Both the position numbers and the translations under genes were made by a program. A stretch of 29,261 nt of DNA, from the IMG/VR virus record IMGVR_UViG_3300009183_000276, positions 1 through 29,261 of that record; one strand, given 5' to 3'. Origin of the DNA: a virus. The notes under the pieces were generated by a model, which was not told the origin of the DNA, made no database searches, and saw only the letters and a program-made list of their open reading frames with translations. This document shows positions 6,252 to 19,538 of the stretch, piece by piece; within the stretch, counting starts at the first letter, position 1; every line of letters starts with the position of its first letter.

Positions 6252-6378
6252 CGTCCCTCAAGTCGCCACGCAACTGTTCGAGGGCGTCCTGCTGGGCTTG
6301 CAAGCGTAGGTAAGCCTCGGTAGCAAACTTGGCCAAGTTCTCGTTTGTCCAGGCTGCAAAGTTTGGTAGGTCGTTCAT
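6211..6378 (-). CDS. Small helical protein, last gene of leftward operon 1
   Basis: This 55-residue hypothetical protein begins MNDLPNFAAW and continues as a single predicted amphipathic helix (ENLAKFATEAYLRLQAQQDAL) ending in Arg-rich KEIRRIRQSDV. Its ATG overlaps the stop of the preceding gene as ATGA (6375-6378). It runs 41 bases into the 3' end of the endolysin gene on the other strand, so the two transcripts are complementary there. No function can be inferred beyond a probable coiled-coil or oligomeric protein. Confidence 0.6.
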   Translation of the reverse strand: MNDLPNFAAWTNENLAKFATEAYLRLQAQQDALEQLRGDLRDAMKEIRRIRQSDV

Positions 6379-6611
6379 GGCATTGGGCAGTTTTCAGGTG
6401 GGACAACAACGCACCAGATGGCGCTCCATTTACCTGGGCCACGGCCTTCCTTGGCAATCCAGCGGTCGATGTAGGCGTCGGGCATCTTCTGCAAGCTGCG
6501 CCCGGCGTTGGTGTAGTTCATGTTGAGGTAGTTGGATATGTCCAGCAGCGTCAAGCCGTCGGCGTACTTGTGCAACAACATTCGTATGCGGTGTTGGGGT
6601 GGCGTGTTCAA
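6375..6611 (-). CDS. Small winged-helix DNA-binding-like protein
   Basis: This 78-residue protein contains a helix-turn-helix pattern: LTLLDISNYLNMNYTNAGRSL (about residues 20-40) has a short helix, a turn and a putative recognition helix, then a basic wing (AKEGRGPGKWSAIW). The start is TTG at 6611 within TTGA, overlapping the previous stop, with AAGGGG upstream; the next in-frame ATG would be ten codons later and lacks such a site. It is probably a transcriptional or replication-associated DNA-binding protein, but the target is unknown. It is the penultimate gene of the leftward operon. Confidence 0.65.
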   Translation of the reverse strand: MNTPPQHRIRMLLHKYADGLTLLDISNYLNMNYTNAGRSLQKMPDAYIDRWIAKEGRGPGKWSAIWCVVVPPENCPMP

Positions 6612-11916: not shown

Positions 11917-12552
11917 ATGTCAAATATAGTAGCGTTCTCCCAAGCGGGCTTGCCCGCAGTTTCCACCCTCGCAACTTCCCTGCGTGCAATTCAATCCGAT
12001 GTCGGCGGCAGCGGCACGGTCATCCTGAAAATGGACAAGACCGGCCACTGGGTGTTTGGTGCAGACCAAACCGAAGTCGAAGACGACAGCACCTGGGCGG
12101 TCAATCCCTTTTCGTTTGTCCACGGCTTCATTGCTTGGGGAGACGGCGAGGTGTTGGGCGAGAAAATGGTGCCCGTGTCCCAACCCCTGCCGGAGTTGGA
12201 CGGGGCGCCCCCAGCCGCCAAGAAGGGTTGGGAAACTCAGGTAGGCATGAGCCTAAAACGCCTGACCGGCGAAGACAAGGGCATGGAAGCGCGCTTCACG
12301 ACCACTTCGGTGGGCGGGAAGAAAGCGGTACAAGCCTTGGCCGTCGCCTTGGCAGATCAGGTCGAGAAAGACCAAAGCAAGCCCGTGCCAGTGGTGTCCC
12401 TCAAGAAGGAACACTATCAGCACAAATCATATGGCCGGATTTTCACGCCGGTCTTTGAGGTAGTGCAGTGGCTTTCGTTGGACGGCGATGCCGAGCCGAA
12501 GAAGGTTGAAGAAGCCCCCGCAGTGGGCCGTCGTCGTCGCGCAGCGGCCTGA
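11917..12552 (+). CDS. Conserved-type phage replication-module protein, possible ssDNA-binding
   Basis: This 211-residue protein has the look of an OB-like or beta-barrel core: GTVILKMDKTGHWVFGADQ, then FVHGFIAWGDGEVLGEKMVP and GWETQVGMSLKRL. A basic-acidic C-terminal tail ends in GRRRRAAA. It lies between the Cas4/AddB-like nuclease and DNA polymerase and its stop overlaps the polymerase start (TGATG). Phage recombination modules often carry a single-stranded DNA-binding protein in that place, so that role is the leading guess, but I see no diagnostic motif and the basic rather than acidic tail is not typical. Ribosome-binding site: AAGGAC about seven bases before the ATG. Confidence 0.65.
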   Translation: MSNIVAFSQAGLPAVSTLATSLRAIQSDVGGSGTVILKMDKTGHWVFGADQTEVEDDSTWAVNPFSFVHGFIAWGDGEVLGEKMVPVSQPLPELDGAPPAAKKGWETQVGMSLKRLTGEDKGMEARFTTTSVGGKKAVQALAVALADQVEKDQSKPVPVVSLKKEHYQHKSYGRIFTPVFEVVQWLSLDGDAEPKKVEEAPAVGRRRRAAA

Positions 12553-14456
12553 TGACTCTCTGGGTTGACTTTGAGACCCGTAGCGCCTGCGACCTGACGG
12601 TCGCGGGCGTTTACAACTACGCCCAGCACCCGAGTACCGAGGTGCTGTGTATGTCGTATGCCTTTGGCGACGATGACGTGCAGACATGGCTGCCCCACCA
12701 ACCTTTTCCTAAATGGCTGATGAGCCGTCACACTGGCCCAATCTACGCCCACAACGCCGCGTTTGAGCGCTTAATTTTTTGGTACGTCTTGCAGATCGAC
12801 TTTGATCTGGAGCAGTTCGTTTGCACCGCAGCGCAGGCCCGCGCCAATTGCGCGCCTGGTTCGCTGGAGGACGTGGGCCGCTTTGCTGGCGCGTCCATGA
12901 AGAAAGACCACCGGGGCGCTCAACTGATCCGCAAGATGTCGATCCCGCCTTACGAGGAATCGCCCGAGTTGACCGCCGAGATGGTGGCCTACTGCGAACA
13001 GGACGTGCGCGCCATGCGGGCGATCAGCAAGGCCATGCGGCCCCTGTCTGCCCAAGAGTTGCAGGACTATCACGTCAACGAGCGCATCAACGATCGTGGC
13101 GTGCTGGTGGACGTGCCCCTGTGCCAAGCCGCCGTCAAGTACGCCAGCGCTGAGTTGGCTGAAATTCAAGAGATCGTCGCCGAGGTGACCGGCGGCGCCA
13201 TCGCCAGCGTGCGCTCCCCCAAGATGCGCGAGTGGGTGCTGGAGCGCGTTGGCCCCGAGGCCAAGAAGCTGATGGAGAAGGACGGCAAGTATTCCATTGA
13301 CAAAACCGTCAGGGCAAACCTGCTGCTGATGGACAACCCTGATGAGGTTCCCCATGACGTTCAAGAAGTCATCCAATGCGCCGACGACCTATGGGCGTCC
13401 TCGGTTGCGAAGTTCAGCCGCCTTGCGGGTCTGGCAGATGAAGAAGATCGACGAGTTCGCGGCGCTTTTGTGTTTGCGGGGGGTTCCGCCACAGGCCGTG
13501 CATCAAGTTATGGCGCTCAAGTCCACAACTTCACCCGAAAATGTGCTCAATCTCCTGAAGATGTGCGCTTGGCGATGGTACGCGGCCACGCAATCGTCCC
13601 CAGGTACGGAAAGCGCGTCACCGACGTCCTCAAAGGGATGCTCCGTCCTGCACTGATACCAGCCAAGGGTAAATACCTAGTCGTGGCCGATTGGTCGGCC
13701 ATTGAGGCTAGGGTAAACCCTTGGTTGTCTGGCAGGGGCGACGAGAAGCTGGCCTTGTTTGCGTCCGGCGAGGACGTGTACAAAGTCAACGCTGCTGCGA
13801 CGTTTGGGGTGTCTGTGTCTCAGGTCAACAAAGACCAGCGCCAGATCGGCAAGGTGCAGGAGTTGGCCTGCGGCTTTGCTGGCGGCGTGGGCGCCTTTGC
13901 TGCGATGGGCCGCGCCTACGGCATCCTGCTGCCCGAGTCGGACGCCCGGCGCATGGTAGACGCATGGCGTAGGGCAAACCCTTGGTCGGTGCCGTACTGG
14001 CAAGACCTAGAATCTGCCTACACCCGAGCGATGCGTAACAAGGGCAAAGAGTTCAGCGCCGGTCGGGTGACCTATATGTTTGACGGCCTGCACCTGTGGT
14101 ACATCCTGCCATCGGGTCGCGTCCTTTGCTACCCCTACGCACGACTGGAAACCGAAGGTGTGACCTACGCTAAAGCCGCTTGGAAACCCGCCGCTGACGC
14201 CAAGGAGTGGCCACGCGCCCGCCTGTGGAAGGGACTGGCCTGCGAGAACATCACCCAGGCCGTGGCCAATGACCTGCTGCGCCATTCGCTGCGCCAGCTT
14301 GACGACGTGGTGCTGCACGTCCACGACGAGATCGTGATCGAAACCAGTACGCCCAACCCCGACGCCCTGCGCTCGGTCATGTGTACCCCGCCCGACTGGG
14401 CCAAGGGTTTACCCCTAGACGCTGAAGTATCAATCATGGAAAGGTATGGAAAATGA
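12552..14456 (+). CDS. DNA polymerase I-type (family A) with 3'-5' exonuclease
   Basis: This is a 634-residue replicative polymerase. The N-terminal proofreading domain has Exo I DFETR (D6, E8), Exo II around YAHNAAFER (H67, N68, F71) and Exo III YCEQD (Y147, D151). The polymerase domain has TGRASSYGAQVHNFTR (about 314-329), motif A VVADWSAIEARV (D380, E385), motif B starting RQIGKVQELACGF (R430, K434) and motif C HVHDEIVIE (589-597, D592). The tyrosine position of the standard motif B is replaced by a GFAGG context, as in other phage enzymes of this compact subgroup. There is no 5'-3' exonuclease domain. The gene overlaps both neighbours by one to four bases, indicating coupled expression with the nuclease and the primase-helicase. 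Confidence 0.93.
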   Translation: MTLWVDFETRSACDLTVAGVYNYAQHPSTEVLCMSYAFGDDDVQTWLPHQPFPKWLMSRHTGPIYAHNAAFERLIFWYVLQIDFDLEQFVCTAAQARANCAPGSLEDVGRFAGASMKKDHRGAQLIRKMSIPPYEESPELTAEMVAYCEQDVRAMRAISKAMRPLSAQELQDYHVNERINDRGVLVDVPLCQAAVKYASAELAEIQEIVAEVTGGAIASVRSPKMREWVLERVGPEAKKLMEKDGKYSIDKTVRANLLLMDNPDEVPHDVQEVIQCADDLWASSVAKFSRLAGLADEEDRRVRGAFVFAGGSATGRASSYGAQVHNFTRKCAQSPEDVRLAMVRGHAIVPRYGKRVTDVLKGMLRPALIPAKGKYLVVADWSAIEARVNPWLSGRGDEKLALFASGEDVYKVNAAATFGVSVSQVNKDQRQIGKVQELACGFAGGVGAFAAMGRAYGILLPESDARRMVDAWRRANPWSVPYWQDLESAYTRAMRNKGKEFSAGRVTYMFDGLHLWYILPSGRVLCYPYARLETEGVTYAKAAWKPAADAKEWPRARLWKGLACENITQAVANDLLRHSLRQLDDVVLHVHDEIVIETSTPNPDALRSVMCTPPDWAKGLPLDAEVSIMERYGK

Positions 14457-17565: not shown

Positions 17566-17600
17566 CCGTAAACGCTGGCGCGCAGCGCTTGCAGATAACC

Positions 17601-18260
17601 CTACGCTGCCAGGCGCAGATTAATCACGCGATGGCGCGAGCCATGCGCAGGGAATGCCACAATGGCCGCGCGCTGGCGCTGGCATAGTTGACACGTGGCG
17701 CAGCTGACGTCGTCGCGTTGTGTGGCCGGGCAAATAACAACCGGGCGCCCTGCTGGCGTCGTTGTATTGGCCGTCGTCGTTGACGGCACGACGACGACGA
17801 CCGGACCGGCATTTTGATCGGCCAAATAATCGGCATCGGCCAAATCATTGGCGGACAGATTGACAGTAAAGCCCCATGTATTGGCGTGCCGGATCCATGC
17901 GATGCTGGCCGCGTCGCGATGATGCGAATAAGTAAAGCCCCGGCGGCCAGCATTGGCCGCGACCAATTGGCCAAGCTTCACGGCATCAATTGTGCCGTCT
18001 ACTTGGGGTAAATCGCCTGCCTGATTGTGGCGCCACAATTGGCCATCGGGCAGTGCTGCGATCGATTGTGTGAATTGGCCCCATGTGGTGCCGCGTGTGC
18101 CGTTGGAGACTGCCGCCCAATGTAGCGCGAGCGGCCCGCTGGCCGCGTAGCATTCTGCGCGCATGGCGCAGTCTGCCGGGCAGCTGTCGCGCTCTGTGGT
18201 GGATACTGGAATTGGGCCGGTTTTGACATTGGCCGATTTGGGGGATAGGTGCACTTGCAT
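17601..18260 (-). CDS. DUF7227/Gp88-like cysteine-rich protein
   Basis: This 219-residue protein has an N-terminal cysteine cluster, CPADCAMRAECYA (C27, C31, C37). It continues with SGPLALHWAAVS, LPDGQLWRHNQAGDLP (about 70-85), GRRGFTYSHH, and WGFTVNLSAND. A second cluster, CATCQLCQ (C187, C190, C193), is preceded by C177 in VVICPAT. These features match a phage family annotated as DUF7227 and resemble Gp88-type proteins. The cysteines suggest iron-sulfur or zinc binding. No enzymatic function is established to my knowledge. It is the largest gene of the second leftward operon and has a hairpin-plus-AAAGG leader. Codon use is rich in TTG-GCC, giving many GGCC sites. Confidence 0.72.
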   Translation of the reverse strand: MQVHLSPKSANVKTGPIPVSTTERDSCPADCAMRAECYAASGPLALHWAAVSNGTRGTTWGQFTQSIAALPDGQLWRHNQAGDLPQVDGTIDAVKLGQLVAANAGRRGFTYSHHRDAASIAWIRHANTWGFTVNLSANDLADADYLADQNAGPVVVVVPSTTTANTTTPAGRPVVICPATQRDDVSCATCQLCQRQRAAIVAFPAHGSRHRVINLRLAA

Positions 18261-18274
18261 GATTTGCCTTTACT
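18258..18274 (-). repeat. Repeated translation leader, copy near DUF7227-type gene
   Basis: The 17 bases ending in the start codon (AGTAAAGGCAAATCATG on the minus strand) are identical to those at 18504-18520 in front of the next gene upstream. They contain AAAGG as ribosome-binding site at seven-base spacing. Both copies follow a perfect hairpin. A related leader (CAGTAAACGAAAG) precedes the gene starting at 17529. Confidence 0.7.
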
Positions 18275-18286
18275 GTAGTGGATTGA

Positions 18287-18309
18287 CGGCCAGGCTTGGC
18301 GCCTGGCCG
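18287..18309 (-). other. Intercistronic hairpin upstream of DUF7227-type gene
   Basis: A perfect 9-bp stem, CGGCCAGGC (18287-18295) with GCCTGGCCG (18301-18309), closes a five-base loop. It lies between the stop of the 62-residue gene and the start of the DUF7227-type gene. There is no T tract on either side, so it is not a typical terminator; it may stabilise or process the transcript or limit readthrough. Confidence 0.6.
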
Positions 18310-18317
18310 GGTTTGAA

Positions 18318-18506
18318 TTATGCAATGAATTCGCGATTGTTAACTACGCCATGCGCCAGTGCAATGGCCATGATCTCGTTTTGTGATTTGCTGGTGCGCG
18401 CGGCGCGATACAGTGCGGACAATGCGCGCGCCATGTAATCGGGGCCAAGCCCGGCGGCGCTGTAACGAATGATTGTGCTGATTTCGCGGTTTTCTGATTT
18501 GGTCAT
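18318..18506 (-). CDS. Small protein, first gene of leftward operon 2 (62 aa)
   Basis: This 62-residue hypothetical protein begins MTKSENREISTIIRYSAAGL and continues GPDYMARALSALYRAARTSK, SQNEIMAIALAHGVVNNREF. It is helical and contains a pattern that could be a short helix-turn-helix, but no family is recognised. It has AAAGG seven bases before the ATG at 18506, in a leader duplicated before the next gene. The strong promoter at 18550-18577 lies directly upstream. As the first gene of an early-looking operon it may be a regulator; that is inference. Confidence 0.65.
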   Translation of the reverse strand: MTKSENREISTIIRYSAAGLGPDYMARALSALYRAARTSKSQNEIMAIALAHGVVNNREFIA

Positions 18507-18520
18507 GATTTGCCTTTACT
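18504..18520 (-). repeat. Repeated translation leader, copy before operon-2 first gene
   Basis: The bases AGTAAAGGCAAATCATG on the minus strand are the exact duplicate of 18258-18274. The copy here also follows a hairpin (18526-18545). The repeat ends with the start codon, so it carries the ribosome-binding site. Confidence 0.7.
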
Positions 18521-18525
18521 TTATT

Positions 18526-18545
18526 GCATGGCGATGTTGCCATGC
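18526..18545. promoter_or_regulatory. Inverted repeat at the transcription start of operon 2
   Basis: GCATGGC (18526-18532) and GCCATGC (18539-18545) form a perfect 7-bp inverted repeat around six bases. The expected start of the promoter at 18550-18577 falls at about 18543, so the repeat covers +1 and the first bases of the transcript. It could be an operator or a 5' hairpin in the RNA. Confidence 0.55.
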
Positions 18546-18549
18546 CTGT

Positions 18550-18580
18550 ATTGTAAGGGATTTTCTTGCATTGTCAATGC
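18550..18580 (-). promoter_or_regulatory. Sigma70-type promoter of leftward operon 2 with palindromic -35
   Basis: On the minus strand TTGACA (18572-18577) is a perfect -35 and TACAAT (18550-18555) a near-consensus -10, 16 bases apart. The -35 is embedded in the perfect palindrome GCATTGACAATGC (18568-18580). It would drive the genes from 18506 leftward to the terminator at 16711-16733. Confidence 0.8.
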
Positions 18581-18688
18581 TTATTTTCTAGGTGTTTACC
18601 CTATGTGGGCTGTTTTGTTGGCGTTTTGATGGCGTGATGTTGGCGCTGCGAATCCGGGGCTTTTCGCTCTTAGTTGGCAGTATTGGCT

Positions 18689-18750
18689 GTTTGATTTATA
18701 TATGTTTAGGAATTAATTGTATATTTTATAATGTGAAATGTATGTAAAAG
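18689..18750. other. AT-rich segment, candidate DNA-unwinding element
   Basis: About 62 bases are strongly AT-rich in a GC-rich phage, flanked on both sides by iteron-like repeats. It includes TATAAT at 18727-18732 on the plus strand, a perfect -10 hexamer but with only a weak -35 (TTTAGG) 16 bases upstream. It may be an unwinding element or a promoter for a leader transcript towards the terminase genes. Confidence 0.45.
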
Positions 18751-19017
18751 AGCTGGAGCGATTTAAATTGGCTGTCTAAACCGCCAACACTGCCTACATC
18801 GCCGCCAACCCCATGATTCACGCATAAATCCGCGCGCCACGCTGGCGCATGGTGTTGGCCATGTTGGCTATTTGGTTTGCATGGCCAACACTGCCAACAC
18901 CTGCCAACCTTGACCTGCCAGCCCCAAGCCCGTAACTCGATGGCGTTGGCATAGCCAACATAGCCAACACCTACCGCCCAGGTAATCCCTTAACATTTTG
19001 CGTAGGATTTTGGCTGA

Positions 19018-19046
19018 GGGGGTGGGGGTAGGGCCGAGCGGAAGGG
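19018..19046 (+). other. G-rich tract, possible G-quadruplex
   Basis: Four G runs occur: five G at 19018-19022, five G at 19024-19028, GGG at 19031-19033 and GGG at 19044-19046, with spacers of 1, 2 and 10 bases. It lies between the repeat array and the terminase promoter on the non-template strand. The long last loop makes quadruplex formation uncertain. Confidence 0.35.
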
Positions 19047-19084
19047 CCAACGTTGACGGAGGGCTCACAAACAAAATTTTTTTT

Positions 19085-19093
19085 TGGTATAAA
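19085..19093 (+). promoter_or_regulatory. Extended -10 promoter for packaging/structural genes
   Basis: TGGTATAAA contains TG one base before TATAAA, an extended -10 like that before the replication operon. A TTGACG at 19053 is too far away (29 bases) to serve as -35. A T tract precedes it. The small terminase gene starts 35 bases downstream with AAGGAG (19117-19122). Confidence 0.5.
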
Positions 19094-19127
19094 CTCACAG
19101 CACACGCCACCAGGCGAAGGAGAACAG

Positions 19128-19538
19128 ATGTTCAAATCACTGCCGCTTACAGTTCGCCATGTCAAGGCCACTGAATCGCGCTTGCAAGCAATCTACGACG
19201 CCGGTAAGCTGGGGCTCAAGGGCGACACACTGGCGCTTGCTTCTGGTATGCGACCTGACGAGTACCGCCATTTGTGCCAATTTGACCCACTGGCCGAGAT
19301 GGCCGCAATCAAAGGCAAAGCGGACGGCGAACGCGAGATGGCGCAGATATTGCATAAGGCCGCCCAAGAAGGCGACGCCAAGGCGGCGCTTGAAATCCTC
19401 AAGCACCAACACGGCTGGGTGGCCAAGCAGTCCATCTCGGTGGACATTGACCAGCGCATTTCTATCACCCAGGCGCTTCAAGAAGCCGAGTTGCGCGTAA
19501 TTGAGGTTGTCGATGCAGTCCACCAAATACAGCGCTGA
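19128..19538 (+). CDS. terS: Terminase small subunit
   Basis: This 136-residue protein starts at ATG 19128, which has AAGGAG six bases upstream; an in-frame upstream extension lies in noncoding DNA. The N-terminal part (VRHVKATESRLQAIYDAGKL) and GDTLALASGMRPDEYRHLCQ look like the helix-turn-helix DNA-binding part of small terminases that recognises the packaging site. It is followed by helical KADGEREMAQILHKAAQEGD and AALEILKHQHGWVAK, the latter (LKxxxGW) typical of the family. The C-terminus would contact the large subunit, whose gene overlaps by 26 bases. Assignment rests on motif pattern plus position. Confidence 0.82.
   Translation: MFKSLPLTVRHVKATESRLQAIYDAGKLGLKGDTLALASGMRPDEYRHLCQFDPLAEMAAIKGKADGEREMAQILHKAAQEGDAKAALEILKHQHGWVAKQSISVDIDQRISITQALQEAELRVIEVVDAVHQIQR

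Follow-up and report, generated by a model that had tools for sequence, protein, structure and literature searches.

A conserved phage promoter–leader cassette that joins an operator-like dyad to a predicted 5′-terminal mRNA hairpin

The window, by which we mean the whole 29,261-base virus record analysed here, carries a leftward promoter–leader cassette that is real and conserved among relatives: a σ70-type promoter is overlain by an operator-like dyad and is followed, at the predicted 5′ end of the message, by a hairpin (Table 1). On comparative grounds, we consider it fairly probable that the dyad serves as an operator over the −10 hexamer and that the 5′-terminal mRNA hairpin slows decay. 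The record is judged from its terminase relatives to belong to a tailed phage of the podovirus type, and it encodes DNA polymerase A, a primase-type protein, an SNF2-type helicase and a cytosine methylase. The terminase genes start some 500 bases rightward of the promoter. No Rfam families or tRNAs were detected in the window, and there was no DNA-level match to positions 17600–19200 among phage records.

Table 1. Features of the promoter, its leader and the leftward operon in the window
Feature	Position	Strand	Basis or remark
−35 hexamer, TTGACA	18572–18577	−	Sequence read
−10 hexamer, TACAAT	18550–18555	−	Sequence read; TACA is part of the right arm of the dyad
Predicted transcription start, A, 7th base after the −10 hexamer	18543	−	Inferred from sequence
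Upstream box, AGGGTAAACACCTA, with A-rich GAAAATA; exchangeable module (type A)	18582–18602	−	Single match in the window, 0.08 expected
13-base palindrome GCATTGACAATGC of the sequence-only reading	18568–18580	−	Exact in 1/112 promoters; judged incidental
19-bp dyad TGCAAGAAAATCCCTTACA, consensus TGYAA-N9-TTACA; candidate operator	18552–18570	−	Sole exact match in the window
5′-terminal mRNA hairpin, DNA GCATGGC-N6-GCCATGC (7+6+7)	18526–18545	−	Fold and covariation counts
First gene of the leftward operon, 62 aa, no family match	18318–18506	−	
Second gene, 219 aa, DUF7227 (PF23872)	17601–18260	−	

The promoter itself is as the sequence-only reading had described it: both hexamers are present on the − strand with a spacer of 16 bases, inside the 16–18 bp range, and together they match the σ70 consensus at 11 of 12 positions. 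It is the single site of this quality in the window, dinucleotide shuffles giving 0.1 per window. The hexamers suggest that it is read leftward by the host RNA polymerase with the vegetative sigma factor, and common phage practice would make it an early promoter. A start near 18543 had also been proposed, and this is consistent with the promoter, the predicted start falling on exactly that base; of the 112 promoters described below, 81 have A and 11 have G at the predicted start.

Relatives were collected by two routes. A search with DUF7227 gave 80 viral-contig loci, 75 of which (the window included) have at least 600 bases of upstream sequence; a strict promoter precedes the DUF7227 gene in 43 of these 75, 39 of them distinct. 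Additionally, all viral contigs were scanned with two patterns; these returned 52 and 101 stretches, which, once the window was added, yielded 112 distinct leaders long enough to use. These 112 were selected by the −35 hexamer, dyad and −10 hexamer together, so the conservation of those three elements among them is by selection; the upstream boxes, the leader and the cargo were free to vary. The cargo does vary: the first genes fall into 31 families in the 100 leaders for which one could be called, the largest being that of the 62-aa protein of the window (41/100), and 46 of the 112 have DUF7227 no more than 4 kb away. With 31 first-gene families behind the same promoter and leader, the cassette is conserved while its cargo turns over. 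Among relatives in bacterial genomes (25 loci), there was no convincing box-plus-hairpin, and no such box occurs in the part of DSL-LC05, a named relative, that was scanned. In ctNMl277, one site with a single mismatch and a downstream fold lie inside an annotated gene, and we judged them to be due to chance. The interval that separates the first gene of the window from that for DUF7227 holds, at 18287–18309, a nine-pair GC-rich hairpin that also occurs in L002 and is not followed by a U run on the transcript strand.

A 19-bp dyad that had been missed by the sequence-only reading extends from the spacer into the −10 hexamer, to which it is locked; it is kept even without TTGACA. In the window, six of its nine mirrored positions are symmetric. 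When 35 promoters were aligned on the −10 hexamer and every possible centre of symmetry was scored, the centre 6 nt upstream of the hexamer stood out, with 71% of mirrored positions complementary versus 42% for the next best. The 35 are drawn from the 39 distinct promoters, leaving out L005, L040, L045 and L049, which are of another repeat type: these have a different kind of promoter with repeated ACCCACTGGGT-like and CCGTAACC units, and neither dyad nor hairpin. The dyad is found with at most one mismatch in 51 of the 75 sequences and with at most two in 63; matches at two mismatches are frequent by chance (333 in 1,133,491 positions elsewhere), and only the 51 were therefore used. It keeps a constant distance to the −10 hexamer in promoters with 16-base and 17-base spacers alike. 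Position 4 covaries across the arms (27/36 versus 17.4 expected in shuffles, a count that kinship may inflate), and positions 2 and 3 show no covariation across the arms. The exact box is present in 28 of 38 larger records, mostly as a single copy, versus 1/38 for a reversed-pattern control. One record (L126, G021) has two dyad boxes, at 12273–12293 and 12702–12722, 430 bases apart on one strand; most records have one. Such a conserved dyad overlapping the promoter has the form of an operator-controlled σ70 promoter. The earlier suggestion that one or two regulators act at the two palindromes is plausible as regards regulation, but the element is a different one, namely, this dyad, together with the upstream box.

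Since a protein bound at the dyad would block the polymerase, repression is the likelier mode of action for its regulator; indeed, a dyad that is centred between the −35 and −10 hexamers and overlaps the latter is typical of repressors. Activation is possible too, given that the dyad persists without TTGACA, which is absent or weak (at least two mismatches at the right distance) in 14 of the 51 dyad-keeping relatives. It is conceivable, though we would not expect it, that the dyad is not the operator of a phage repressor at all, and is instead the site of an activator or a host regulator that links the operon to a signal from the host: the 14 relatives that lost TTGACA would fit such an arrangement, as would the single site that most of the 38 records have and our failure to recognize a conserved phage regulator in the records searched, whereas the location of the centre between the hexamers, with one arm over the −10, speaks against it. 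We know of no host regulator with a TGYAA-N9-TTACA site.

Among the ORFs common to 11 records, none was recognized as a conserved regulator; their nameable conserved genes serve replication, packaging and structure, and there are a few small unknowns besides. The window encodes, at 6375–6611, a 78-aa protein with a strongly conserved C-terminal VVPPENCPMP tail, a middle portion that by eye resembles a helix-turn-helix or winged helix, and 26 viral relatives; Pfam gave no match to it. It was rejected as a general regulator, its family occurring in only 3 of the 38 records.

Upstream of the −35 hexamer, the window sequence reads AGGGTAAACACCTAGAAAATA, and the module found there appears to be exchangeable. 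Within 40 nt upstream of the hexamer, 65 of the 112 promoters have an AGGG-N5-CCTA-like box and 88 have an A-tract; other promoters carry TGCAA-type or different boxes. In L024, L025 and L073, which are without TTGACA, the AGGG box lies (by eye) 11–12 bp nearer the dyad, a shift of approximately one helical turn, as if the box and the dyad must face the same side. In L059, a large inverted repeat, GGTGTCAATT...AATTGACACC, replaces the AGGG box upstream of the dyad, and one half of it is common to L002.

Repeats also occupy the interval that separates the promoter from the terminase genes. At 18770–18965 of the window, there is an array of TGTTGGC/GCCAACA units, with nine copies in 420 nt and in both orientations; the relatives have arrays at the same place built from other units (GTCCACA, GCCCACA, TGACCCA, CACTAAC/AAGTTAG or GACTACA). 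These resemble iterons whose specificity is diverging. Their reader is unlikely to be the small subunit of the terminase, which is almost identical in L012 and L059 even though the repeat units of the two differ.

The second element of the cassette is the 7+7 inverted repeat over the predicted transcription start, a repeat that the sequence-only reading had taken for a probable regulator site. The repeat is present; however, it is conserved by pairing and not by letters, which an RNA hairpin explains better than an operator. The transcript of the window would begin at 18543 with AUGGC-AACAUC-GCCAU (predicted −6.2 kcal/mol), the DNA palindrome extending 2 bp further upstream. Taking the 7th base after the −10 hexamer as the start, and counting as a hairpin any fold of −4 kcal/mol or lower that begins within the first 3 nt, we find one in 83 of the 112 distinct leaders, compared with 295 of 2240 dinucleotide shuffles (13%) and 33 of 336 downstream windows (10%). 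Relative to these predicted starts, pairing begins at +1 in 63 of the hairpin leaders, at +2 in 20 and at +3 in none, and the 83 leaders contain 57 distinct hairpin sequences. The exact 7+6+7 geometry, with at least six of seven pairs, is seen in 49 of 130 leaders versus 1.9% of shuffles.

Covariation was scored in an alignment chosen for the 7+6+7 geometry, comprising 22 of 52 leaders (30 were aligned and 8 dropped after MAFFT had shifted them). In these 22, 89% of cells are paired and there are 39 two-sided changes, with no more than 40% paired in slid controls; the covariation score is 0.622 versus 0.195 in shuffles, none of 500 scoring as high, and the slid controls reach at most 0.114. 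The most direct illustration is the pair L036 and L076, in which the 31 bases after the −10 hexamer are identical except for a G–C to A–U exchange across the stem. RNAalifold, applied to a MAFFT alignment of 31 leaders, returned no consensus pair; we put this down to misaligned 3′ arms of differing loop lengths, and for this reason used the fixed-geometry counts. The hairpin is absent, by the fold definition given above, from 29 of the 112 leaders, several of which are short and unstructured, and it is therefore not essential. An intrinsic terminator was considered and rejected: after the stem, the transcript strand continues AATAAAG, with no U run.

Whether the repeat acts as RNA or as DNA was approached through its loops and its imperfect pairs. 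A scan in which TTACGCT and a GCGC stem were fixed and the four-base loop could take any sequence found 64 stretches with 52 distinct sites, of which 13 have a left dyad half-site (at most two mismatches) and 39 do not. The loops of the 13 are GCAA (5), GTAA (4), GAAA (3) and TTCG (1), that is, all GNRA (12) or UUCG (1), although the 13 include near relatives and do not amount to 13 independent events; the other 39 sites show mixed loops. GNRA and UUCG loops stabilize RNA, and some GNA-type loops stabilize DNA hairpins too. Among departures from perfect stems, G·U (13) and A·C (15) are equally common, where selection on RNA should favour G·U. By eye, about half of the A·C cases come from two related stem types, and we have weighed the loops above this parity on that account. 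On balance, we consider it most likely that the second palindrome acts as RNA.

That it is instead a DNA operator, at which a repressor dimer sits at +1 and has diverged in specificity along with its site from phage to phage, strikes us as unlikely. Such an operator would be in keeping with the perfect inverted repeat of the window, with the A·C departures being as common as G·U, and with the 17 of 72 distinct hairpins whose pairing can be extended upstream of the predicted start; the other 55 cannot be extended, a number that carries little information, since chance alone would account for most of it. It would not account for arm sequences and loop lengths (4–10) that vary freely against a boundary fixed at +1/+2, nor for the GNRA or UUCG loops at 13 of 13 sites.

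A conserved structure within a leader could mark a translational or processing control element, recognized by an RNA-binding protein, a small RNA or a nuclease, and the leaders that lack the hairpin would sit well with this; we nonetheless rate such a role as improbable, as neither the sequence nor the loop is conserved, making one common partner unlikely, and as the hairpin keeps its distance from the gene. Its 3′ end lies at +16 to +23, well before the AUG, whose median position in each of the larger hairpin families falls between about +44 and +54 (+38 in the window); it ends approximately 20–30 nt before the start codon, and the ribosome site thereby stays free. Start codons in two hairpin-less families are at +25 and +32. 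A stem that begins at or next to the predicted first nucleotide and leaves the ribosome site unoccluded has the features of a stabilizing stem-loop, which is the role that we prefer.

The palindrome around the −35 hexamer fared differently. It is present, with TTGACA inside it, as the sequence-only reading had noted; as a regulator site it is contradicted by the relatives, under the refuting condition that this reading had itself set, in that the hexamers are conserved and the palindrome is found in 1 of 112, the window itself. The three bases preceding TTGACA are most often TTG (46), GTG (15) or TGC (14) among the 112 promoters, and are GCA once, in the window only. TTGACAA has a small built-in symmetry, and the remainder of the palindrome looks like chance; we judge it to be an incidental, private feature of one phage. 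The window holds 7 exact 6+1+6 palindromes (9.0 in shuffles) and 17 exact 7+7 short-loop repeats (12.9 in shuffles), with no clear excess; these numbers are not beyond chance, and the case consequently rests on placement and relatives. An ordinary σ70 promoter with two chance palindromes, which equality with the shuffles would allow and which holds for the −35 palindrome, is very hard to credit for the second, whose structure at +1/+2 is conserved with compensatory changes.

Each part of the cassette has parallels. In early promoters of the lambda PR type, an operator dyad overlaps the hexamers, as the candidate operator does here, with the difference that the present phages usually have one dyad per genome. 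The leader of T7 gene 10, which also follows a strong phage promoter, likewise has its hairpin at +1; T7 transcribes with a polymerase of its own, in contrast to the σ70-type hexamers here. PMC3997798 describes a 5′ hairpin that stabilizes bla mRNA and impedes RppH, and cites the 5′-terminal stabilizing stem-loops of the ompA and papA leaders (Emory, Bouvet and Belasco 1992). As in those leaders, the hairpin described here is at the extreme 5′ end, with 0–1 unpaired bases, and away from the ribosome site; unlike them, the putative stabilizer is clade-wide, sequence-free and tied to one promoter type. Phage CUUCGG hairpins, one of which is linked in PMC8948821 to the stability of the T4 gene 32 message, are also leader hairpins, and some loops here are UUCG. 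The present hairpin differs in standing at the predicted primary start and in that most of its loops are not UUCG; PMC3014915, which also bears on this subject, places RNase E processing of gene 32 messages 71 nt upstream of the start codon. The promoter of the N4-type virion RNA polymerase has, according to PMC4496689, a DNA hairpin upstream of the start with a heptamer centred at −11. We rejected this model, as the hairpin here spans +1 to approximately +20 (predicted start) and is preceded by σ70-type hexamers. Among the open-access papers searched on phage leader hairpins, a set with few subscription papers or preprints, we found no description of the cassette.

In the mechanism that we favour, a dimeric regulator on TGYAA-N9-TTACA, centred 6 bp upstream of the −10 hexamer, would exclude the polymerase, and the upstream box (AGGGT..CCTA with an A-tract in the window, others in the relatives) would presumably provide an exchangeable input. 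The transcript would begin at the predicted +1 or +2 with the hairpin, the letters of its arms varying and the pairing being kept. The paired 5′ end would hinder pyrophosphate removal and 5′-end-dependent decay by RNase E, and the polycistronic message would thus stay alive while the cargo genes change from phage to phage. More tentatively, a large clade of freshwater phages may keep the cassette as a unit in which the dyad is fixed, the boxes and cargo are swappable, and the sequence-free hairpin is a structural cap against the 5′-end-dependent decay of the host, with the dyad being read by a type of regulator that has yet to be reported from phages.

If this is correct, more than 100 environmental phage promoters would become recognizable, and their start sites predictable, with nothing but the sequence to go on. 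Dozens of different stems at a single position would constitute a natural mutational series for the protection of messages at the 5′ end. Moreover, the cassette would mark an operon into which new phage genes are taken up, with 31 first-gene families so far, and this operon would be a place to look for possible host-takeover or counter-defence genes.
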